Of a stretch of 64,000 nt of DNA, positions 11,231-60,853 are shown piece after piece. Made by a program: the position numbers and the translations under genes. Each line of letters starts with the position of its first letter. Positions within the stretch are counted from its first letter, which is position 1. The notes under the pieces were generated by a model that was given only the letters and a program-made list of their open reading frames with translations, was not told where the DNA came from and made no database searches. This DNA is from Candidatus Gastranaerophilales bacterium (lineage in GTDB: Bacteria; Cyanobacteriota; Vampirovibrionia; Gastranaerophilales; Gastranaerophilaceae): positions 1 to 64,000 of the forward strand of contig CALUYW010000015.1 in the NCBI GenBank assembly GCA_944325105.1. The letters run 5' to 3'.

Positions 11231-12091
11231 TTATATTAATGACAATGCAATGTTTGGTTGTTGGTTAGCTTGAACCAATAGAGCTGCAGATGCTTGTTGC
11301 AGAATTGAGTTTTGAGTGTAGTTAGATGATTCTGTAGCAATGTCAGCATCTTTGATACGTGAATTTGCAGCCGAGAGGTTTTCATACTGAGTATCTAACT
11401 GCTCCATTGCAGAAGACAATCTGTTAGATACAGCACCAATTGTACCTCTTCTTGTTGAAATTTCGGTAATAGCTTCATCCAATTGGTCAAGTTGGTCTTG
11501 CATAGCTGATAAGTCAGTACCGACAAATTTTGAAGTAAATGCTGCTTGACCGGTTAGAGTTGAAACATGTGCATCATTAAACACGCCTGAAATTTCAAGA
11601 GTATTGGTGGCACTGTCTGAACCTGTACCAATTTGAAGAGTTACCTTTTCGTCTGCACCGTCACGAGTAGCTCCGCCAAATAGGTCAAATGTGTTAAATT
11701 TGGCACCTGTTGCAATTCTGTCAATTTCAGCCAAACGTGCAGTAGCTTCTTCTTGCATAGCGGCTAACTGTTCATCAGTTTGACCGCCGTTCATAGCTTG
11801 AAGAGTCAAGTCACGAATTCTCATAAAGTTGTCTTGCATAACGGCAAGGTTACCTTCAGCAGTTTGCAGTAAGTTAACGCCTGATTGAGCATTATCCTTG
11901 GCAACTTGAGAACCGCGAGTTTGAACTTCGATACCTTTTGAAATTACTAATCCTGCAGCATCATCCGCAGCAGAGTTAATTTTCAAACCGGTAGTCATTC
12001 TCTCCATTGCAGTGTTCATAGCGTCAGTAACGCTGTTTAGGTTGTTTTGAACCTTGATTGATTGAATGTTTGTGTTAACCACAATAGCCAT
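11231..12091 (-). CDS. fliC: Flagellin, copy A
   Basis: Structural subunit of the flagellar filament, exported through the FlhA/FlhB/FliPQR gate encoded elsewhere in this window. The 286 residues make a short flagellin. The conserved D0/D1 helices are at the N-terminus (NTNIQSIKVQNNL, TGLKINSAADDAAGLVIS) and C-terminus (RIKDADIATESSNYTQNSIL, ending NIALSLI). Only a small variable middle lies between them (about residues 145-185), so the outer D2/D3 domains are essentially absent. It has AAAGGAGAT before ATG. It lies 187 bases downstream of copy B, with a terminator between, so it likely has its own promoter. Confidence 0.97.
   Translation of the reverse strand: MAIVVNTNIQSIKVQNNLNSVTDAMNTAMERMTTGLKINSAADDAAGLVISKGIEVQTRGSQVAKDNAQSGVNLLQTAEGNLAVMQDNFMRIRDLTLQAMNGGQTDEQLAAMQEEATARLAEIDRIATGAKFNTFDLFGGATRDGADEKVTLQIGTGSDSATNTLEISGVFNDAHVSTLTGQAAFTSKFVGTDLSAMQDQLDQLDEAITEISTRRGTIGAVSNRLSSAMEQLDTQYENLSAANSRIKDADIATESSNYTQNSILQQASAALLVQANQQPNIALSLI
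11241..11454 (-). repeat. 3' flagellin repeat, copy A (214 bp identical)
   Basis: Identical base for base to 12289-12502. It encodes the C-terminal D1/D0 part of flagellin. Such identity at silent sites points to recent duplication or ongoing gene conversion. Confidence 0.9.
11901..12076 (-). repeat. 5' flagellin repeat, copy A (176 bp identical)
   Basis: Identical to 12961-13136. It encodes most of the N-terminal D0/D1 helix. Confidence 0.9.
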
Positions 12092-12257: not shown

Positions 12258-12284
12258 ATATAATTAACTTTTTGTTAATTATAT
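12258..12284 (-). other. Perfect AT-rich inverted repeat at the flagellin B stop codon
   Basis: ATATAATTAAC pairs with GTTAATTATAT around TTTTT. The stop codon lies inside the right arm. It may be an RNA-stabilising 3' hairpin ahead of the real terminator. Confidence 0.5.
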
Positions 12285-13151
12285 GAGAGACAATGCAATG
12301 TTTGGTTGTTGGTTAGCTTGAACCAATAGAGCTGCAGATGCTTGTTGCAGAATTGAGTTTTGAGTGTAGTTAGATGATTCTGTAGCAATGTCAGCATCTT
12401 TGATACGTGAATTTGCAGCCGAGAGGTTTTCATACTGAGTATCTAACTGCTCCATTGCAGAAGACAATCTGTTAGATACAGCACCAATTGTACCTCTTCT
12501 TGATGAAATTTCGGTAATTGCAACATCGAGCTGGTCAAGCTGAGCTTGCATATCAGCCAATTGAGCAGGGTCAGTGCCGTCAACAAATTTTGAAGTAAAT
12601 GCAGCTTGACCCGTTAAAGCCGAAACTTGAGCGCTGTTAAACACATCCGAAATTGTGATAGTATTTGTTGCAGTTTCTGAACCTGTACCAATTTGAAGGG
12701 TAACTTCTTCAGCATCACTATCATGTGTTGCGCCGCCAAATAGGTCAAATGAGTTAAACTTCGCACCTGTTGCAATTCTGTCAATTTCAGCTAAACGTGC
12801 ATTAGCTTCTTCTTGCATAGCTTCAAGTTGTTCTTGTGTTTGACCGCCGTTCATTGCTTGAAGAGTCAAGTCACGAATTCTCATAAAGTTGTCTTGCATA
12901 ACGGCAAGGTTACCTTCAGCAGTTTGCAGCAAGTTAACGCCGGACTGGGCGTTGCTTTTTGCAACTTGAGAACCGCGAGTTTGAACTTCGATACCTTTTG
13001 AAATTACTAATCCTGCAGCATCATCCGCAGCAGAGTTAATTTTCAAACCGGTAGTCATTCTCTCCATTGCAGTGTTCATAGCGTCAGTAACGCTGTTTAG
13101 GTTGTTTTGAACCTTGATTGATTGAATGTTTGTGTTTACTACGATTGCCAT
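12279..13151 (-). CDS. fliC: Flagellin, copy B
   Basis: Second filament subunit, 290 residues, with the same N-terminal and C-terminal D0/D1 helices as copy A. It differs almost only in the middle (about residues 112-215: QEQLEAMQEEANARL, HDSDAEEVTLQIG, FVDGTDPAQLADMQAQL). The start is set by AAAGGAGATTTG before ATG. Its 285-base upstream region holds inverted and direct repeats. Two near-identical flagellins in tandem commonly build one mixed filament. Being first after a long leader, copy B may be the more strongly regulated one. Confidence 0.97.
   Translation of the reverse strand: MAIVVNTNIQSIKVQNNLNSVTDAMNTAMERMTTGLKINSAADDAAGLVISKGIEVQTRGSQVAKSNAQSGVNLLQTAEGNLAVMQDNFMRIRDLTLQAMNGGQTQEQLEAMQEEANARLAEIDRIATGAKFNSFDLFGGATHDSDAEEVTLQIGTGSETATNTITISDVFNSAQVSALTGQAAFTSKFVDGTDPAQLADMQAQLDQLDVAITEISSRRGTIGAVSNRLSSAMEQLDTQYENLSAANSRIKDADIATESSNYTQNSILQQASAALLVQANQQPNIALSLI
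12289..12502 (-). repeat. 3' flagellin repeat, copy B (214 bp identical)
   Basis: The partner of 11241-11454. The two direct repeats are about 1.05 kb apart, so recombination between them could delete or fuse the genes. Confidence 0.9.
12961..13136 (-). repeat. 5' flagellin repeat, copy B (176 bp identical)
   Basis: The partner of 11901-12076. Identity ends within the sixth codon, just before the start codon on the upstream side. Confidence 0.9.
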
Positions 13152-56205: not shown

Positions 56206-57210
56206 TCAGGCCGAGTTATTCGTCTTAAATGCAGGTGTAATATCGTTAAAAACTATCTTTGCACTTTTTAAAAGGCTATTTTCTTTAATTTCTTTAAGAT
56301 AGTCTTTTGTCAGAATACTGCTTGATTTAACCGGTTTATAACCTTTTAGCTCCATATACTCTTTAAACACCTTATAGTTAGAAAAATAGGTCTTTATTTT
56401 TACGTATAAATTCCATTTTTTTGTACGTTTACTAAGAGAGTTTGCAATAAACATAAGTGCATCTTGAAAATATATCTCAAAAGCACCATCCAAAACAAAA
56501 TCAAGGACATAATCAGCATTGTTATAGGTTGAAATATTAAAATACCCGTACACTCGACCTTTTTGTTCATCCTCAAGCACATAAGAAAATGATGTCTTGT
56601 CACTCATACCGCTTGCAAAATCTGGCTCAAACTGTTTTTTCACCCTTGCAAAGCTATGGCGCTGATATGAATTAATGCTTGTATTGTACAATCTGCAAAC
56701 TTCACTTACTCGAATATTTTTGTAAAAATTGAAACCTTCATAATTTATCTCAGCAGTGTTTGGTAAATCAGTATTTTCTATCTTATAAAGATACTCATCG
56801 GCATTTTTTCTAAACCCGCAACCGTCAATAAAAAGGGAGAGCAAGTCTGACTTTGAATTTTCGACAACCACCTGAAAAGACACCGCACCCATGGCACAAT
56901 ACCTGCTAACAACGTACTGCACAAGTAATTTGCCTATATCAAATGAATTTTGTTCAAGAAAAACTCTTGTAATCTTTAAGCGCTTGGGATTTTTTTCATC
57001 CTTCTCAAGACTAATTAAACCCAGTATTTTGCCTTTTTCATACGCCACATAAGATTCACACAAAAACTTCATTCTAAGGGGCAAAAAATGATGAACAAAA
57101 GCAACTAAAGACGGAGCAAACGCCTGCTTGTCAAACTCAAAGCCCTTGTGCTCCAAAATATTTTTTAATTTTGAAAAATCACAAAAAACAGTGCTCTTAA
57201 TCTGAGTCAT
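56206..57210 (-). CDS. GNAT-like (possibly tandem) protein
   Basis: A 334-residue protein whose N-terminal half has the GNAT acetyltransferase pattern: AYEKGKILGLISLEKDE, then a helix-loop FDIGKLLVQYVVSRYCAMGA, then VVVENSKSDLLSLFIDGCGF. The acetyl-CoA loop (Q/RxxGxG/A) is degraded, so it may be inactive. The second half (YVLEDEQKGRVYGYFNI, ALMFIANSLSKRTKKWNLYV) looks like a second, diverged copy. It abuts the convergent gene with no spacer, and neither gene has an obvious terminator. Confidence 0.65.
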   Translation of the reverse strand: MTQIKSTVFCDFSKLKNILEHKGFEFDKQAFAPSLVAFVHHFLPLRMKFLCESYVAYEKGKILGLISLEKDEKNPKRLKITRVFLEQNSFDIGKLLVQYVVSRYCAMGAVSFQVVVENSKSDLLSLFIDGCGFRKNADEYLYKIENTDLPNTAEINYEGFNFYKNIRVSEVCRLYNTSINSYQRHSFARVKKQFEPDFASGMSDKTSFSYVLEDEQKGRVYGYFNISTYNNADYVLDFVLDGAFEIYFQDALMFIANSLSKRTKKWNLYVKIKTYFSNYKVFKEYMELKGYKPVKSSSILTKDYLKEIKENSLLKSAKIVFNDITPAFKTNNSA

Positions 57211-57235: not shown

Positions 57236-57796
57236 TTAATTTCTGGTAAAACTTTCATAATCAAGAGGAATTCTTGAACGCATTGAAACAATATGAGAGC
57301 AAAAATCGTTAATTTCACTTATTATTCCGCGTACAAAGTTTTTAGGAGTATCTTTTATCGGAGAGAGCTTTTCAGGAACAGGTTGATTATAAGAAAAGAA
57401 ATTTCTCCTGATTAATTCTTTTAATTTATCAAATCTTCCCGCTAAAAATTCTGCTGTTTTCCTTCTTTTTATTTCCATTTGATCAGAAAAAACTATAAAA
57501 TTTCTTTTTGGAATACCATATTTTGAATTAATATTAATCAAACTGGGATTTACACCCGAGAATAAGTTATGTCTTATCATGGGAACAACATATAAAAAAG
57601 CAACTCCTGCAGCCAAAACTGCGGCAACACCCTTGAGTAAAGGATGAGAACCGCCGCCTTTTTTAAGCTGGGGCTCATCGCTTTTCAAAGCACCGCTTTG
57701 AGTATCGGAATTTTTCTGCGAAGAAGAATTGTTTGCAACATTTGTGTTTGCTGCGCTAAAATTTCTAAATGCTGACGGAGTACTTGTTATTTCCAT
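57236..57796 (-). CDS. Single-pass membrane protein, unknown
   Basis: A 186-residue protein with a Ser/Asn/Gln-rich disordered N-terminus, a Gly stretch (KKGGGSHPLLKG) and one membrane helix (VAAVLAAGVAFLYVVPMI, about residues 58-75). The C-terminal part is basic (EIKRRKTAEFLAGRFDKLKE). No family recognised. It lies 25 bases upstream of the GNAT-like gene and could share a transcript with it. Confidence 0.62.
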   Translation of the reverse strand: MEITSTPSAFRNFSAANTNVANNSSSQKNSDTQSGALKSDEPQLKKGGGSHPLLKGVAAVLAAGVAFLYVVPMIRHNLFSGVNPSLININSKYGIPKRNFIVFSDQMEIKRRKTAEFLAGRFDKLKELIRRNFFSYNQPVPEKLSPIKDTPKNFVRGIISEINDFCSHIVSMRSRIPLDYESFTRN

Positions 57797-57888
57797 GAAT
57801 CGGCCCTATACACATAACCACAAATAACAAAACCGTTCAAGATTTTTTTTTGCAACATGGCAGGGTTAATATTAAGTTTTATTAAAAA

Positions 57889-58632
57889 CTATTCAGACTT
57901 TTTTCTGTATTCTTCGGGCGCGTCTTCTCTTTCTTGGTTCCAGCGCTCAAGGCCCATTTGTTTTCTGACAAGTCCTATACCTACATGCACACGCCATTCA
58001 TCCATTTTAAGCTGTGCAGCAAGAATTTTGTGACATCCGATAGGCGGCAGGGGTAAAAGAGGCTCATAAAGATTTTTAATAGCCATCATCTGATCGGGCG
58101 TAATCGCCAGTTTTCTTTTTGGGTAAGCAATCTTTGGCAGCATCATTTTTTGCCTTATAAGGTTTATACCAAAAAATACTTTCTTTGGCTCAAGTCCTAT
58201 CTTTTCCCCTATTACTTCATGGGCGTCAGGGTTAGGCAAAGGAAGCATTTTTTTGTATAATTCTTCAATTTGCATAAGCTGCTCTTTATTAACAAGGAGC
58301 GGCTTTGGTTTGCCCATGGGACGTCCTCCGGGACGCCTGTTATTGTTAGGACGCGGACGTCTTTGGTTAAAATTGCCGTCACGTTTTTGAAAATTAGGTC
58401 TTTGACCCTGACGATTTTGGTCTTTATTAAATCTTTTATAACTACCCTCATTACCTGTTCCGGCGCTATAACTTCTGGGGTATTGCACCGCCCCGCTTTG
58501 CGCACTTGAGGTTGCAGATGCATCTTGCAATATAGGAGTTCTGTCAGGATACAAACACTCCGGACATATGACTCTCTTGGGGTTCTTTGTTTCAAACTCC
58601 TTACCGCATTTAGTGCATTTGTTTGTGTACAT
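57889..58632 (-). CDS. Zinc-ribbon, RG-rich protein with a duplicated 51-residue domain
   Basis: A 247-residue protein. The N-terminal zinc ribbon has CTKC (C6, C9) and CPEC (C23, C26). Residues 50-112 are disordered and rich in Arg, Gly, Asn and Gln (RRPRPNNNRRPGGRP), like RNA-binding RGG stretches. The rest is two similar domains: 117-167 (EELYKKMLPLPNP, KVFFGINLIRQKM) and 180-230 (KNLYEPLLPLPPIGCHKI, RVHVGIGLVRKQM), identical at 17 of 51 positions by my alignment. Each domain may be a helical nucleic-acid-binding unit. I recognise no family. A function in RNA binding or regulation is likely but not shown. Confidence 0.75.
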   Translation of the reverse strand: MYTNKCTKCGKEFETKNPKRVICPECLYPDRTPILQDASATSSAQSGAVQYPRSYSAGTGNEGSYKRFNKDQNRQGQRPNFQKRDGNFNQRRPRPNNNRRPGGRPMGKPKPLLVNKEQLMQIEELYKKMLPLPNPDAHEVIGEKIGLEPKKVFFGINLIRQKMMLPKIAYPKRKLAITPDQMMAIKNLYEPLLPLPPIGCHKILAAQLKMDEWRVHVGIGLVRKQMGLERWNQEREDAPEEYRKKSE

Positions 58633-58773
58633 AAAAAATATCCTTCTTGGCCTTATAGTATGTTTCCATCAGAAAAATCAACAGTAATTTAAAATTCTCC
58701 CTAAATTAAAAAGATGAGACGGCTTTGTATTTATTTTATAATTAAAATTTAATTAATACAAGTATTAATTTAT

Positions 58774-58802
58774 TTGTACATATTGAACAAAACTGCTAGT
58801 AT
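58774..58802 (+). promoter_or_regulatory. Candidate promoter with start at the ATG (leaderless)
   Basis: TTGTAC and TAGTAT are separated by 17 bases. The expected transcription start falls on or next to the ATG at 58809, which has no Shine-Dalgarno. Confidence 0.4.
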
Positions 58803-58808
58803 ATAATT

Positions 58809-59285
58809 ATGAATCAACAAGGCGGGTTAATTAACTGTAAAAAATGCGGTTCGCTTTTTATCAAAGGAGCGCGCGATATTTGTGACAACTGCTTTAAGGC
58901 AGAGCTTGAAGTTGTAGAAAAAATCAAAACATTCATAAATAAAAAAGGGCAAGAAAAAACTACAATAGAAGAAATTGTAAACGAACTTGGCATAGATAAA
59001 AACGAGCTTGAAGATTTAATAGAAAAAGGCAGGCTCTTCTCCGTTATGCCAAAACTCATTATAAAGTGCAGGTTCTGCGGTATAGAAATTGAAGATGAAC
59101 AAAAATCAAGTTTTGTTTGCACAAAATGTTTAAATAAATTCAGCCCAAAGGGCGATTTGGCTAAAATAAATGCTCTCAAAGAAGAACAACAGAAAGAAAT
59201 TTCAGAAAGAAGAATAAGAAGAACATACTCGGAAACCGACGGTTCAAAAAGCCGCTGTGGCTTTATTCAAAACTACGATTTCTAA
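58809..59285 (+). CDS. YvyF-like flagellar protein with zinc ribbons
   Basis: A 158-residue protein similar to YvyF (a flagellar-operon protein of Bacillus). The N-terminal ribbon CKKCGSLFIKGARDICDNC is followed by a helical MerR-like segment (TTIEEIVNELGIDKNELEDL, EKGRLFSVM) and a second ribbon (CRFCGIEIEDE...CTKCL). The role of YvyF is not fully known. Here it is a stand-alone gene outside the main flagellar operons. There is no clear Shine-Dalgarno. It overlaps the convergent 67-residue gene by four bases. Confidence 0.82.
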   Translation: MNQQGGLINCKKCGSLFIKGARDICDNCFKAELEVVEKIKTFINKKGQEKTTIEEIVNELGIDKNELEDLIEKGRLFSVMPKLIIKCRFCGIEIEDEQKSSFVCTKCLNKFSPKGDLAKINALKEEQQKEISERRIRRTYSETDGSKSRCGFIQNYDF

Positions 59286-59485
59286 GCTATAAAGTTGTTG
59301 CCGTATTTCAGAGAACCGATAAAATAACATTCTTTTAAAAGTTTTTCCATGCTTCTGTAAACTCTCTTTTTAGGAGGTTTAATAGCATCTGTTATAGCTG
59401 ATTTTGTTTGTCTGTATTCTCTAACTGCCGAGTTTACTATAAAGAAGTTTTCGATGTTTTCGTTAATTTCTGCTTGTGTGTACAT
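59282..59485 (-). CDS. Small hypothetical protein
   Basis: A 67-residue soluble helical protein (MYTQAEINENIENFFIV..., a KRVYRSMEKLLKECYFIG segment near the end). The start is chosen at 59485, where AGAGGA sits eight bases upstream; an in-frame ATG 54 bases further back lacks a ribosome site. No family recognised. It may be a regulator, but nothing visible proves this. Confidence 0.6.
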   Translation of the reverse strand: MYTQAEINENIENFFIVNSAVREYRQTKSAITDAIKPPKKRVYRSMEKLLKECYFIGSLKYGNNFIA

Positions 59486-59587
59486 TCTCTTTTCCTCTGA
59501 TAAAATATCTCTCGTACTATAATAAAAAACAATGCACACTTTTTATTGACTTTTTAAATAAAAAATATATATTTTCTGTAATATTTC

Positions 59588-60853
59588 TTAATATAGTTTG
59601 TCAAAATCACTCATATTGCGCAATTCAAGAGTATTTCTCAAATCATCTCTTTCATCTTTAATAAAAACTTTTATATAATTTCTGCTAACAGCACTGTATA
59701 AGCCCGTTTTTTTAGATTTTCTCTCATATAAAAGCTCAAGCGTTTTATTTTTATTTCTTTCCAAAAATGACTTATGCAGAGCATCTGAAAGCTCAAGCAG
59801 CTTTTGCGTGCGCTTTGTCTTTACAGTGTCACAAATTTGATTTTTCATTTTAGCGGCAGGCGTATTTTCTCTTTTAGAATAAGGAAAAGCGTGAATATAG
59901 CTTAATTTTGAACTTTTAAGATTATTGTATGTAATTTCAAAATCCAAATCTTGCTCATCTGGAAAACCCGCTATTATGTCGCAGCCCAAATAAGGTTCAT
60001 CAAAAGAGTTATAAAGCTTATCAATAAGCTCAAGCGCAAAAGATGAACCATAGTGCCTGTTCATATTTTTTAGCGTCTTATCGCACAGTGACTGCAAAGA
60101 AAGATGAAAATGAGGACAGAACTTCTCTGAAGATTTCAAAAACTCAAGCATCTTATCATCAATCTCATTTACATACAATGACCCCAGTCTGTAGCGCGAT
60201 ATGGAGGTTTTTTCAATTTCTTTCAGTAAATCAACTAAACCAAGATTAAACTCTAACCCCCACTGGCCGATGTGAATACCTGTCAGCACAACTTCTTTTG
60301 TTCCTGATTGCGCAAGAAGTTCAATTTGAGAAATTACATTTTCAGCACTGTTTGAGCGCGAGTTGCCTCTGGCATAAGGTATTATGCAATATGAGCACCT
60401 GTTATTGCACCCCTCTTGAATTTTTATACTCGGGCGGGTTTGATAGGGGTTTATAATAGTTTTATTATTAAATTCATTAATTGAAAATATGTCGCAGACG
60501 AATTTTGACCCGTTTTTATCAAGATAATCAACTATATTTAACTTTTCATTGTTGCCTAAAATTATATCCGCATTTTGAATATCAAAATCCTTGTGCAAGT
60601 CTATGGTTTGAGCCACACAACCGGTTAAAATATTTACTATATCAGGGTTCTCGCGCTTTGCACGATTTAGCAGATACGCACTTTGAGAGTCACTGTGAGA
60701 AGTAACCGAACAAGAATTTAAAATAAAAAAATCCGCATCGCAAAAGTCCTCGCACTGCACATAACCTGCGCCTTTAAGAGATGAGGCAATTATCTGCCCC
60801 TCTATGGCATTTGTCTTGCAGCCCAGAGTTTTTAGCACGAATTTTCTACACAC
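59588..60853 (-). CDS. mtaB: tRNA t6A37 methylthiotransferase MtaB
   Basis: A 421-residue methylthiotransferase of the MiaB family that converts t6A to ms2t6A. The N-terminal domain has the three cysteines for one 4Fe-4S cluster (TLGCKTNAIE, NSCSVTSHSDSQSA, TGCVAQ). The radical SAM motif is CNNRCSYC in QEGCNNRCSYCIIPYARG. A C-terminal TRAM-like segment follows. The pattern fits MtaB better than MiaB. tsaC, which makes the t6A precursor, is also in this window. It begins at a GTG overlapping rlmD by eight bases. Confidence 0.88.
   Translation of the reverse strand: MCRKFVLKTLGCKTNAIEGQIIASSLKGAGYVQCEDFCDADFFILNSCSVTSHSDSQSAYLLNRAKRENPDIVNILTGCVAQTIDLHKDFDIQNADIILGNNEKLNIVDYLDKNGSKFVCDIFSINEFNNKTIINPYQTRPSIKIQEGCNNRCSYCIIPYARGNSRSNSAENVISQIELLAQSGTKEVVLTGIHIGQWGLEFNLGLVDLLKEIEKTSISRYRLGSLYVNEIDDKMLEFLKSSEKFCPHFHLSLQSLCDKTLKNMNRHYGSSFALELIDKLYNSFDEPYLGCDIIAGFPDEQDLDFEITYNNLKSSKLSYIHAFPYSKRENTPAAKMKNQICDTVKTKRTQKLLELSDALHKSFLERNKNKTLELLYERKSKKTGLYSAVSRNYIKVFIKDERDDLRNTLELRNMSDFDKLY

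Follow-up and report, generated by a model that had tools for sequence, protein, structure and literature searches.

Two trihelical helix-turn-helix (HTH) units in tandem are found in DUX4, whose double homeodomains are available in DNA-bound form (PDB 6e8c, 5zfy, 7dw5). Homeodomains are marked in helix 3 by W48, N51, and R53 (homeodomain numbering). Among prokaryotes, PDB entry 2lvs, a CRISPR repeat-binding protein of the Cbp1 type, also carries repeated HTH units; a protein of this type is not known to have a zinc ribbon or basic linker. SelB binds RNA through C-terminal winged helices (1wsu, 2pjp), which belong to a translation factor. In TFIIB and TFB, a ribbon and a linker are followed by two repeats, which are cyclin folds of about 90 residues. 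YvyF (TIGR03826) combines zinc ribbons with an HTH-like middle, and the AT-hook is an RGRP core with basic residues on both sides. The gut-dwelling, non-photosynthetic relatives of cyanobacteria are mostly uncultured, and little is known of their gene regulation.

We analyzed a window of 64,000 nucleotides from Candidatus Gastranaerophilales bacterium (GenBank GCA_944325105.1, contig CALUYW010000015.1, positions 1 to 64,000), in which one gene encodes a 247-residue protein with a pI of 9.8, composed of a C4 zinc ribbon, a basic linker, and two repeats (Table 1). No NCBIfam or Pfam model gives this protein a name. Among the titles listed in literature searches on Gastranaerophilales and Melainabacteria proteins, none concerned a zinc ribbon-tandem HTH protein; searches for an AT-hook, zinc ribbon, helix-turn-helix, and disorder joined in a bacterial protein, and for a Cbp1 tandem helix-turn-helix with a CRISPR repeat, also found nothing. 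The family is real, well conserved, and unnamed; its nucleic-acid-binding unit is of a known type but sits in unusual surroundings, and its mechanism we infer. With a probability of roughly 55%, the protein is restricted to this lineage and binds DNA via two linked HTH units, either as a global regulator or as a nucleoid protein.

Table 1. Features of the gene, its protein product, and its upstream region (window coordinates).
Feature	Coordinates	Strand	Remarks
Whole gene (P0001)	57889..58632	(-)	ORF from ATG to stop, 247 aa
C4 zinc ribbon, residues 1-31 (C6, C9, C23, C26)	58540..58632	(-)	
Basic linker, residues 32-110, predicted disordered 35-99	58303..58539	(-)	pLDDT < 50, pI 11.6
Repeat 1, residues 111-167, predicted HTH unit (helices 116-129, 137-145, 149-162)	58132..58302	(-)	
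Repeat 1 third helix, residues 149-162	58147..58188	(-)	DSSP on AlphaFold2 model
Inter-repeat linker, residues 168-173, with conserved PKR (171-173)	58114..58131	(-)	
Repeat 2, residues 174-230, predicted HTH unit (helices 179-192, 200-208, 212-226)	57943..58113	(-)	
Repeat 2 third helix, residues 212-226	57955..57999	(-)	
Short C-terminal tail and stop	57889..57942	(-)	
Promoter-like TTGTAT - 17 - TAAAAT	58733..58761	(-)	Putative; block conserved across an alignment of 23 upstream regions
Leader element TGATGGAAACA	58661..58671	(-)	TGATGG(A/G)AA block in upstream alignments

The duplication is well supported. The two repeats align without gaps, with 18 of 57 residues identical; a sequence-only reading of the same DNA had counted 17 of 51, which is this alignment shortened. 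The BLOSUM62 local score was 101; when the second copy was shuffled 20,000 times, the mean was 23.5 and the maximum 55, and no shuffle reached the observed value. Profile-profile comparison of the copies gave E 1.1e-16. The pattern it had described, LPLP followed by H...GI.L.R..M, is present in each copy. AlphaFold2, run with 45 sequences, predicted an ordered ribbon (pLDDT > 90), disorder over most of the linker, and two three-helix units. Modeled alone, the tandem reached a mean pLDDT of 91 and a pTM of 0.78 and contained no strands. In the prediction, both repeats show the arrangement of a trihelical HTH: three helices, the last two joined by a tight turn.

Structure comparison gave a consistent but weak picture. 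Foldseek against the PDB ranked the DNA-bound DUX4 double homeodomains first (best E 8.4e-3 with the whole model and 3.9e-2 with only the tandem). Tandem engrailed and 2lvs (rank 8 and 3) came next, and the SelB RNA-binding domain was among the first 12 rows; no PDB match had an E under 0.001, nor did any in the BFVD structure search. The DUX4 alignments have an rmsd of about 14-22 A at an E of only 8e-3, so the arrangement of the units either differs or is not predicted, and 2lvs is only 18-20% identical to our protein. VIA-align returned mainly homeodomains and winged HTHs (Z 5-6 over about 50-60 residues, highest 6.1). Because biotin protein ligase, Z-alpha, RcsB-type, and a ribosomal chain tie with the homeodomains (Z 5.2-6.1), we claim no single HTH subfamily. 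Such weak matches of small helical domains may reflect merely a common arrangement. Pfam, HMMER, and Foldseek nevertheless all point weakly the same way, and on the predicted model both repeats fall into the trihelical, homeodomain-like type of HTH. The earlier label of a domain of unknown type is thus not supported.

The likeness to homeodomains raises the question of whether a true homeodomain protein was taken from a eukaryote. The Pfam Homeodomain family (PF00046) matched 40 of 43 tandem sequences at E <= 0.1, the best (E 1.4e-6) being one of these 43 members and outside the set of ten relatives that were scanned singly. Six of those ten matched at E <= 0.01 and one reached the gathering cut-off of 22.9 bits; the window protein scored 19.0 and its tandem 21.8. 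The first two helices and turn of repeat 1 score 19-22.9 bits in the window protein and several relatives. These near-cut-off matches and the first rank of DUX4 speak for such an origin. Against it, the match spans profile positions 7/8-45 only and does not extend to the stretch of helix 3 that is diagnostic, and repeat 2 by itself matched no Pfam family. In the register of the HMMER alignment of the tandem profile (A2) to the homeodomain, both repeats of all 118 distinct tandems have G/A at the W48 position and L/I at that of N51. The R53 position is kept in all 118 (R160 and R223). A search of profile A2 against the PDB with HMMER placed homeodomains at E 0.19 and 1.0, alongside eIF3m. We therefore regard the repeats as homeodomain-like HTHs and not homeodomains, since W48 and N51 are absent from helix 3, where R53 is kept; together with the broad spread of the protein within its class, this makes acquisition of a eukaryotic homeodomain very improbable. 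As leucine or isoleucine replaces the base-contacting N51, the homeodomain mode of DNA reading is not conserved. DUX4 also differs in having neither the zinc ribbon nor the basic linker of the window protein.

In repeat 1, the third helix, which by analogy would occupy the recognition-helix position, keeps F153, N157, L158, R160, and K162 in 118/118 sequences; in repeat 2, E212, W213, R214, H216, V217, I219, and R223 are equally constant. Between the repeats, P171, K172, and R173 do not vary in alignment A1 or A2. Hydrophobic residues are numerous among the invariant ones, and the winged helices of UFL1/DDRGK1 are among the structure matches, as would suit a scaffold with protein-binding instead of nucleic-acid-binding HTH units. 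The strong positive charge, the basic linker, and the invariant arginines and lysines of the third helices oppose this reading, which we consider improbable.

The four cysteines form a C-x2-C-x13-C-x2-C ribbon with the two CxxC knuckles of zinc-ribbon proteins, and metal binding is predicted from this pattern. Every one of the 133 distinct relatives whose N-terminus can be read has a spacer of 13; these relatives were chosen by a pattern permitting spacers of 10-16, so that only the exact spacing is informative. The N-terminus is missing at 5 of 176 loci, all at contig edges as far as coordinates show. In the AlphaFold2 model, the ribbon (residues 1-30) has a pLDDT of about 92-96, with strands at 2-5 and 12-15. 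RNA polymerase subunit P is one of its weak matches (NCBIfam E 0.013; PDB E 0.24), and those in PHROGs are weak and ribbon-type only.

The order of parts (zinc ribbon, linker, two helical DNA-binding repeats) is that of TFIIB. A convergent, TFIIB-like general transcription factor would dock its ribbon on RNA polymerase and hold promoter DNA with its repeats, and both the subunit P match and a conservation like that of EF-G would fit this. We nonetheless judge it improbable: the repeats are 57-residue three-helix units and not cyclin folds, subunit P scores no better than zinc fingers, alanyl-tRNA synthetase, and other ribbons, and absence from several families of the same class would be odd for a general factor. 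A more specific version, a class-specific basal factor with its ribbon on the bacterial RNA polymerase, its tandem HTH on promoter DNA, and an RG/GY-rich, possibly condensate-forming linker, appears slightly less probable still.

The linker of the window protein comprises 79 residues with 16 K+R versus 4 D+E. It had been described as RGG-like, basic, and disordered; the last two properties stand (Table 1), whereas this linker has only 9 glycines and no RGG, let alone the several motifs of an RGG box. The description fits relatives better. At least one RGG is present in the linkers of 46 of 133 relatives and at least two in 27, and 113 of the 133 carry at least one GGY/GYG-type motif. Linker length ranges from 72 to 236 residues and the glycine fraction from 3 to 47%. 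Five linkers (L131-L133, L142, and L144) are tandem arrays, for example, of PQGGGYGPP or QGGGYQPRPY, and such arrays vary in length between near relatives, as between L131 and L132. In some other lineages, the C-terminal tail is longer and AT-hook-like, with cores in 48/133 distinct relatives (RGRP in 12, RGRKP in 36); the window protein has neither core.

DNA is favored as the ligand because the closest folds are DNA-bound and AT-hook-like tails occur in these 48 relatives. The main competing reading, an RNA-binding or ribosome-associated factor, is possible though clearly less likely. Its HTH pair would grip structured RNA as the SelB winged helices do, aided by the RG/GY-rich linker, in ribosome maturation, tRNA modification, or RNA chaperoning. 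The SelB-RNA chains among the Foldseek matches and the RGG- or GGY-rich linkers of relatives are consistent with it, although SelB units are winged helices and our tandem model is strandless.

Gene order bears on the same question. In the tandem tree, one clade of 30 loci (support 0.957) has rimM as the next gene in 28, at a spacing that runs from about -20 to +4 nt and for most lies between -4 and +4; 25 of the 28 also have a called trmD. In the remaining two, trmD lies downstream and rimM was not called. This suggests a link to translation and is the only genomic support for an RNA chaperone or ribosome role. Because the linked genes form one clade, the linkage counts as one observation and probably as a single event, and neighbors vary in other groups. 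We also considered a replacement of KhpA. The window genome has only two matches to PF13083, both below the cut-off, but the control exceeds that threshold in only 6 of 14 genomes, so the low scores carry no weight. In the genus of the window, the gene is divergent from a yvyF-like gene (58809-59285, (+); TIGR03826 E 2.9e-21, 75.9 bits, cut-off 124), whose product consists of a zinc ribbon, an HTH-like middle, and a second zinc ribbon and whose cluster is present in 33 loci. The part order of our protein differs from that of YvyF, and the two neighbors share no informative family match. Elsewhere in the window, 56206-57210 (-) encodes a 334-residue protein with weak, sub-cut-off GNAT acetyltransferase matches, and 11231-12091 and 12279-13151 (-) are two adjacent, very similar genes that are flagellin-like by their sequence features.

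Within the window's family, the protein belongs to the single-copy core, and it is specific to part of one class. Relatives were present in 51 of 58 near genomes; the seven genomes without a match comprise six of the same order (completeness 66-88%) and one of the same class (G057). Profile A2 matched 299 of the 382 genomes that represent the class, distributed, as counted from the listed rows, over 271/276 of the window's family, 10/10 of the order's other families, and 18/96 of the rest of the class. Nearly all genomes of the window's family had one match each. Seventeen of the 18 matches outside the order belong to three families (f9, f14, and f15), and several families of the same class are without the protein. 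Two candidate outliers were set aside: a remote homologue in G057 (family f8, E 0.03) is at chance level among 382 genomes, and a single-sequence match in G093 (E 0.0015) is interrupted by internal stops and was not found again when the profile was used. In one genome (G026), a second, shorter copy (C29:66029-66562, a 190-aa open frame with the ribbon, linker, and part of repeat 1) accompanies a full copy at another place. In a phylum sample of 386 genomes, 174 matched, all from the window's family, order, or class, and none lay beyond the class. The earlier suggestion of lineage specificity is borne out by this confinement.

Sequence divergence within this range is low. Tandems from 15 genomes outside the order are 57-72% identical to that of the window, compared with 69-75% for EF-G of the same genomes and 63-70% for enolase (14 of 15 with a match), and 40 of 127 columns are invariant in 43 diverse tandem sequences. 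By these comparisons, the tandem appears to change nearly as slowly as EF-G.

Mobile or viral origin was also considered. Searches with tblastn of 72,556 plasmid and 50,697 phage records found no match, and of eight stretches in viral contigs that fit a pattern, none was confirmed; such an origin was rejected on these results. An anti-phage system was rejected as well, with 0 PADLOC families at E <= 1.

Upstream of the gene, the argument for the putative promoter is its conservation, since a standard consensus promoter scan does not list TTGTAT-17-TAAAAT among its sites. The leader element TGATGGAAACA has one exact match in the window, and TGATGGRAAYA is not enriched there (5 matches with <=1 mismatch versus 4.78 expected). 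A conserved RNA structure in the leader was rejected, as RNAalifold found no pair in the 23 upstream regions and 57400-59600 drew no Rfam hit at E <= 1. The -35 region is overlapped by TTAATACAAGTATTAA (58753-58768), a perfect 16-base palindrome that most of the window genus retains and the next group lacks. With <=2 mismatches, it has 2 matches versus 0.96 in shuffles, and 26 of 100 shuffles reach 2; as an autoregulatory DNA site, it was therefore dismissed as not significant.

Herein, our findings point strongly to nucleic-acid binding, moderately to DNA rather than RNA as the ligand, by about two to one, and weakly to a regulatory or nucleoid role. The predicted HTH folds, the basic linker, and the confinement to part of one class support the nucleic-acid-binding and lineage-specific character already proposed from the sequence. 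For the favored DNA-binding regulator or nucleoid protein, we picture a chromosomal single-copy protein that would grip nucleic acid by two covalently linked trihelical HTH units, most likely binding double-stranded DNA as a monomer. Each unit would place its third helix in the major groove over one half of a bipartite or direct-repeat site, putatively AT-rich. The basic linker, together with the AT-hook-like tails of some relatives, may add sequence-independent grip, and the zinc ribbon could contact a protein partner or nucleic acid. Weak structure matches, the absence of N51, the lack of an AT-hook in the window protein, the capacity of HTHs such as those of SelB to bind RNA, and the rimM-trmD clade count against this picture. 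In this protein, a double HTH and a zinc ribbon come together with a disordered basic linker, RG/GY-rich in relatives, although such parts usually occur separately. It changes about as slowly as EF-G and enolase, yet several families of its class and the rest of the phylum sample lack it, which makes it a good candidate for a global regulator or nucleoid protein particular to this lineage.
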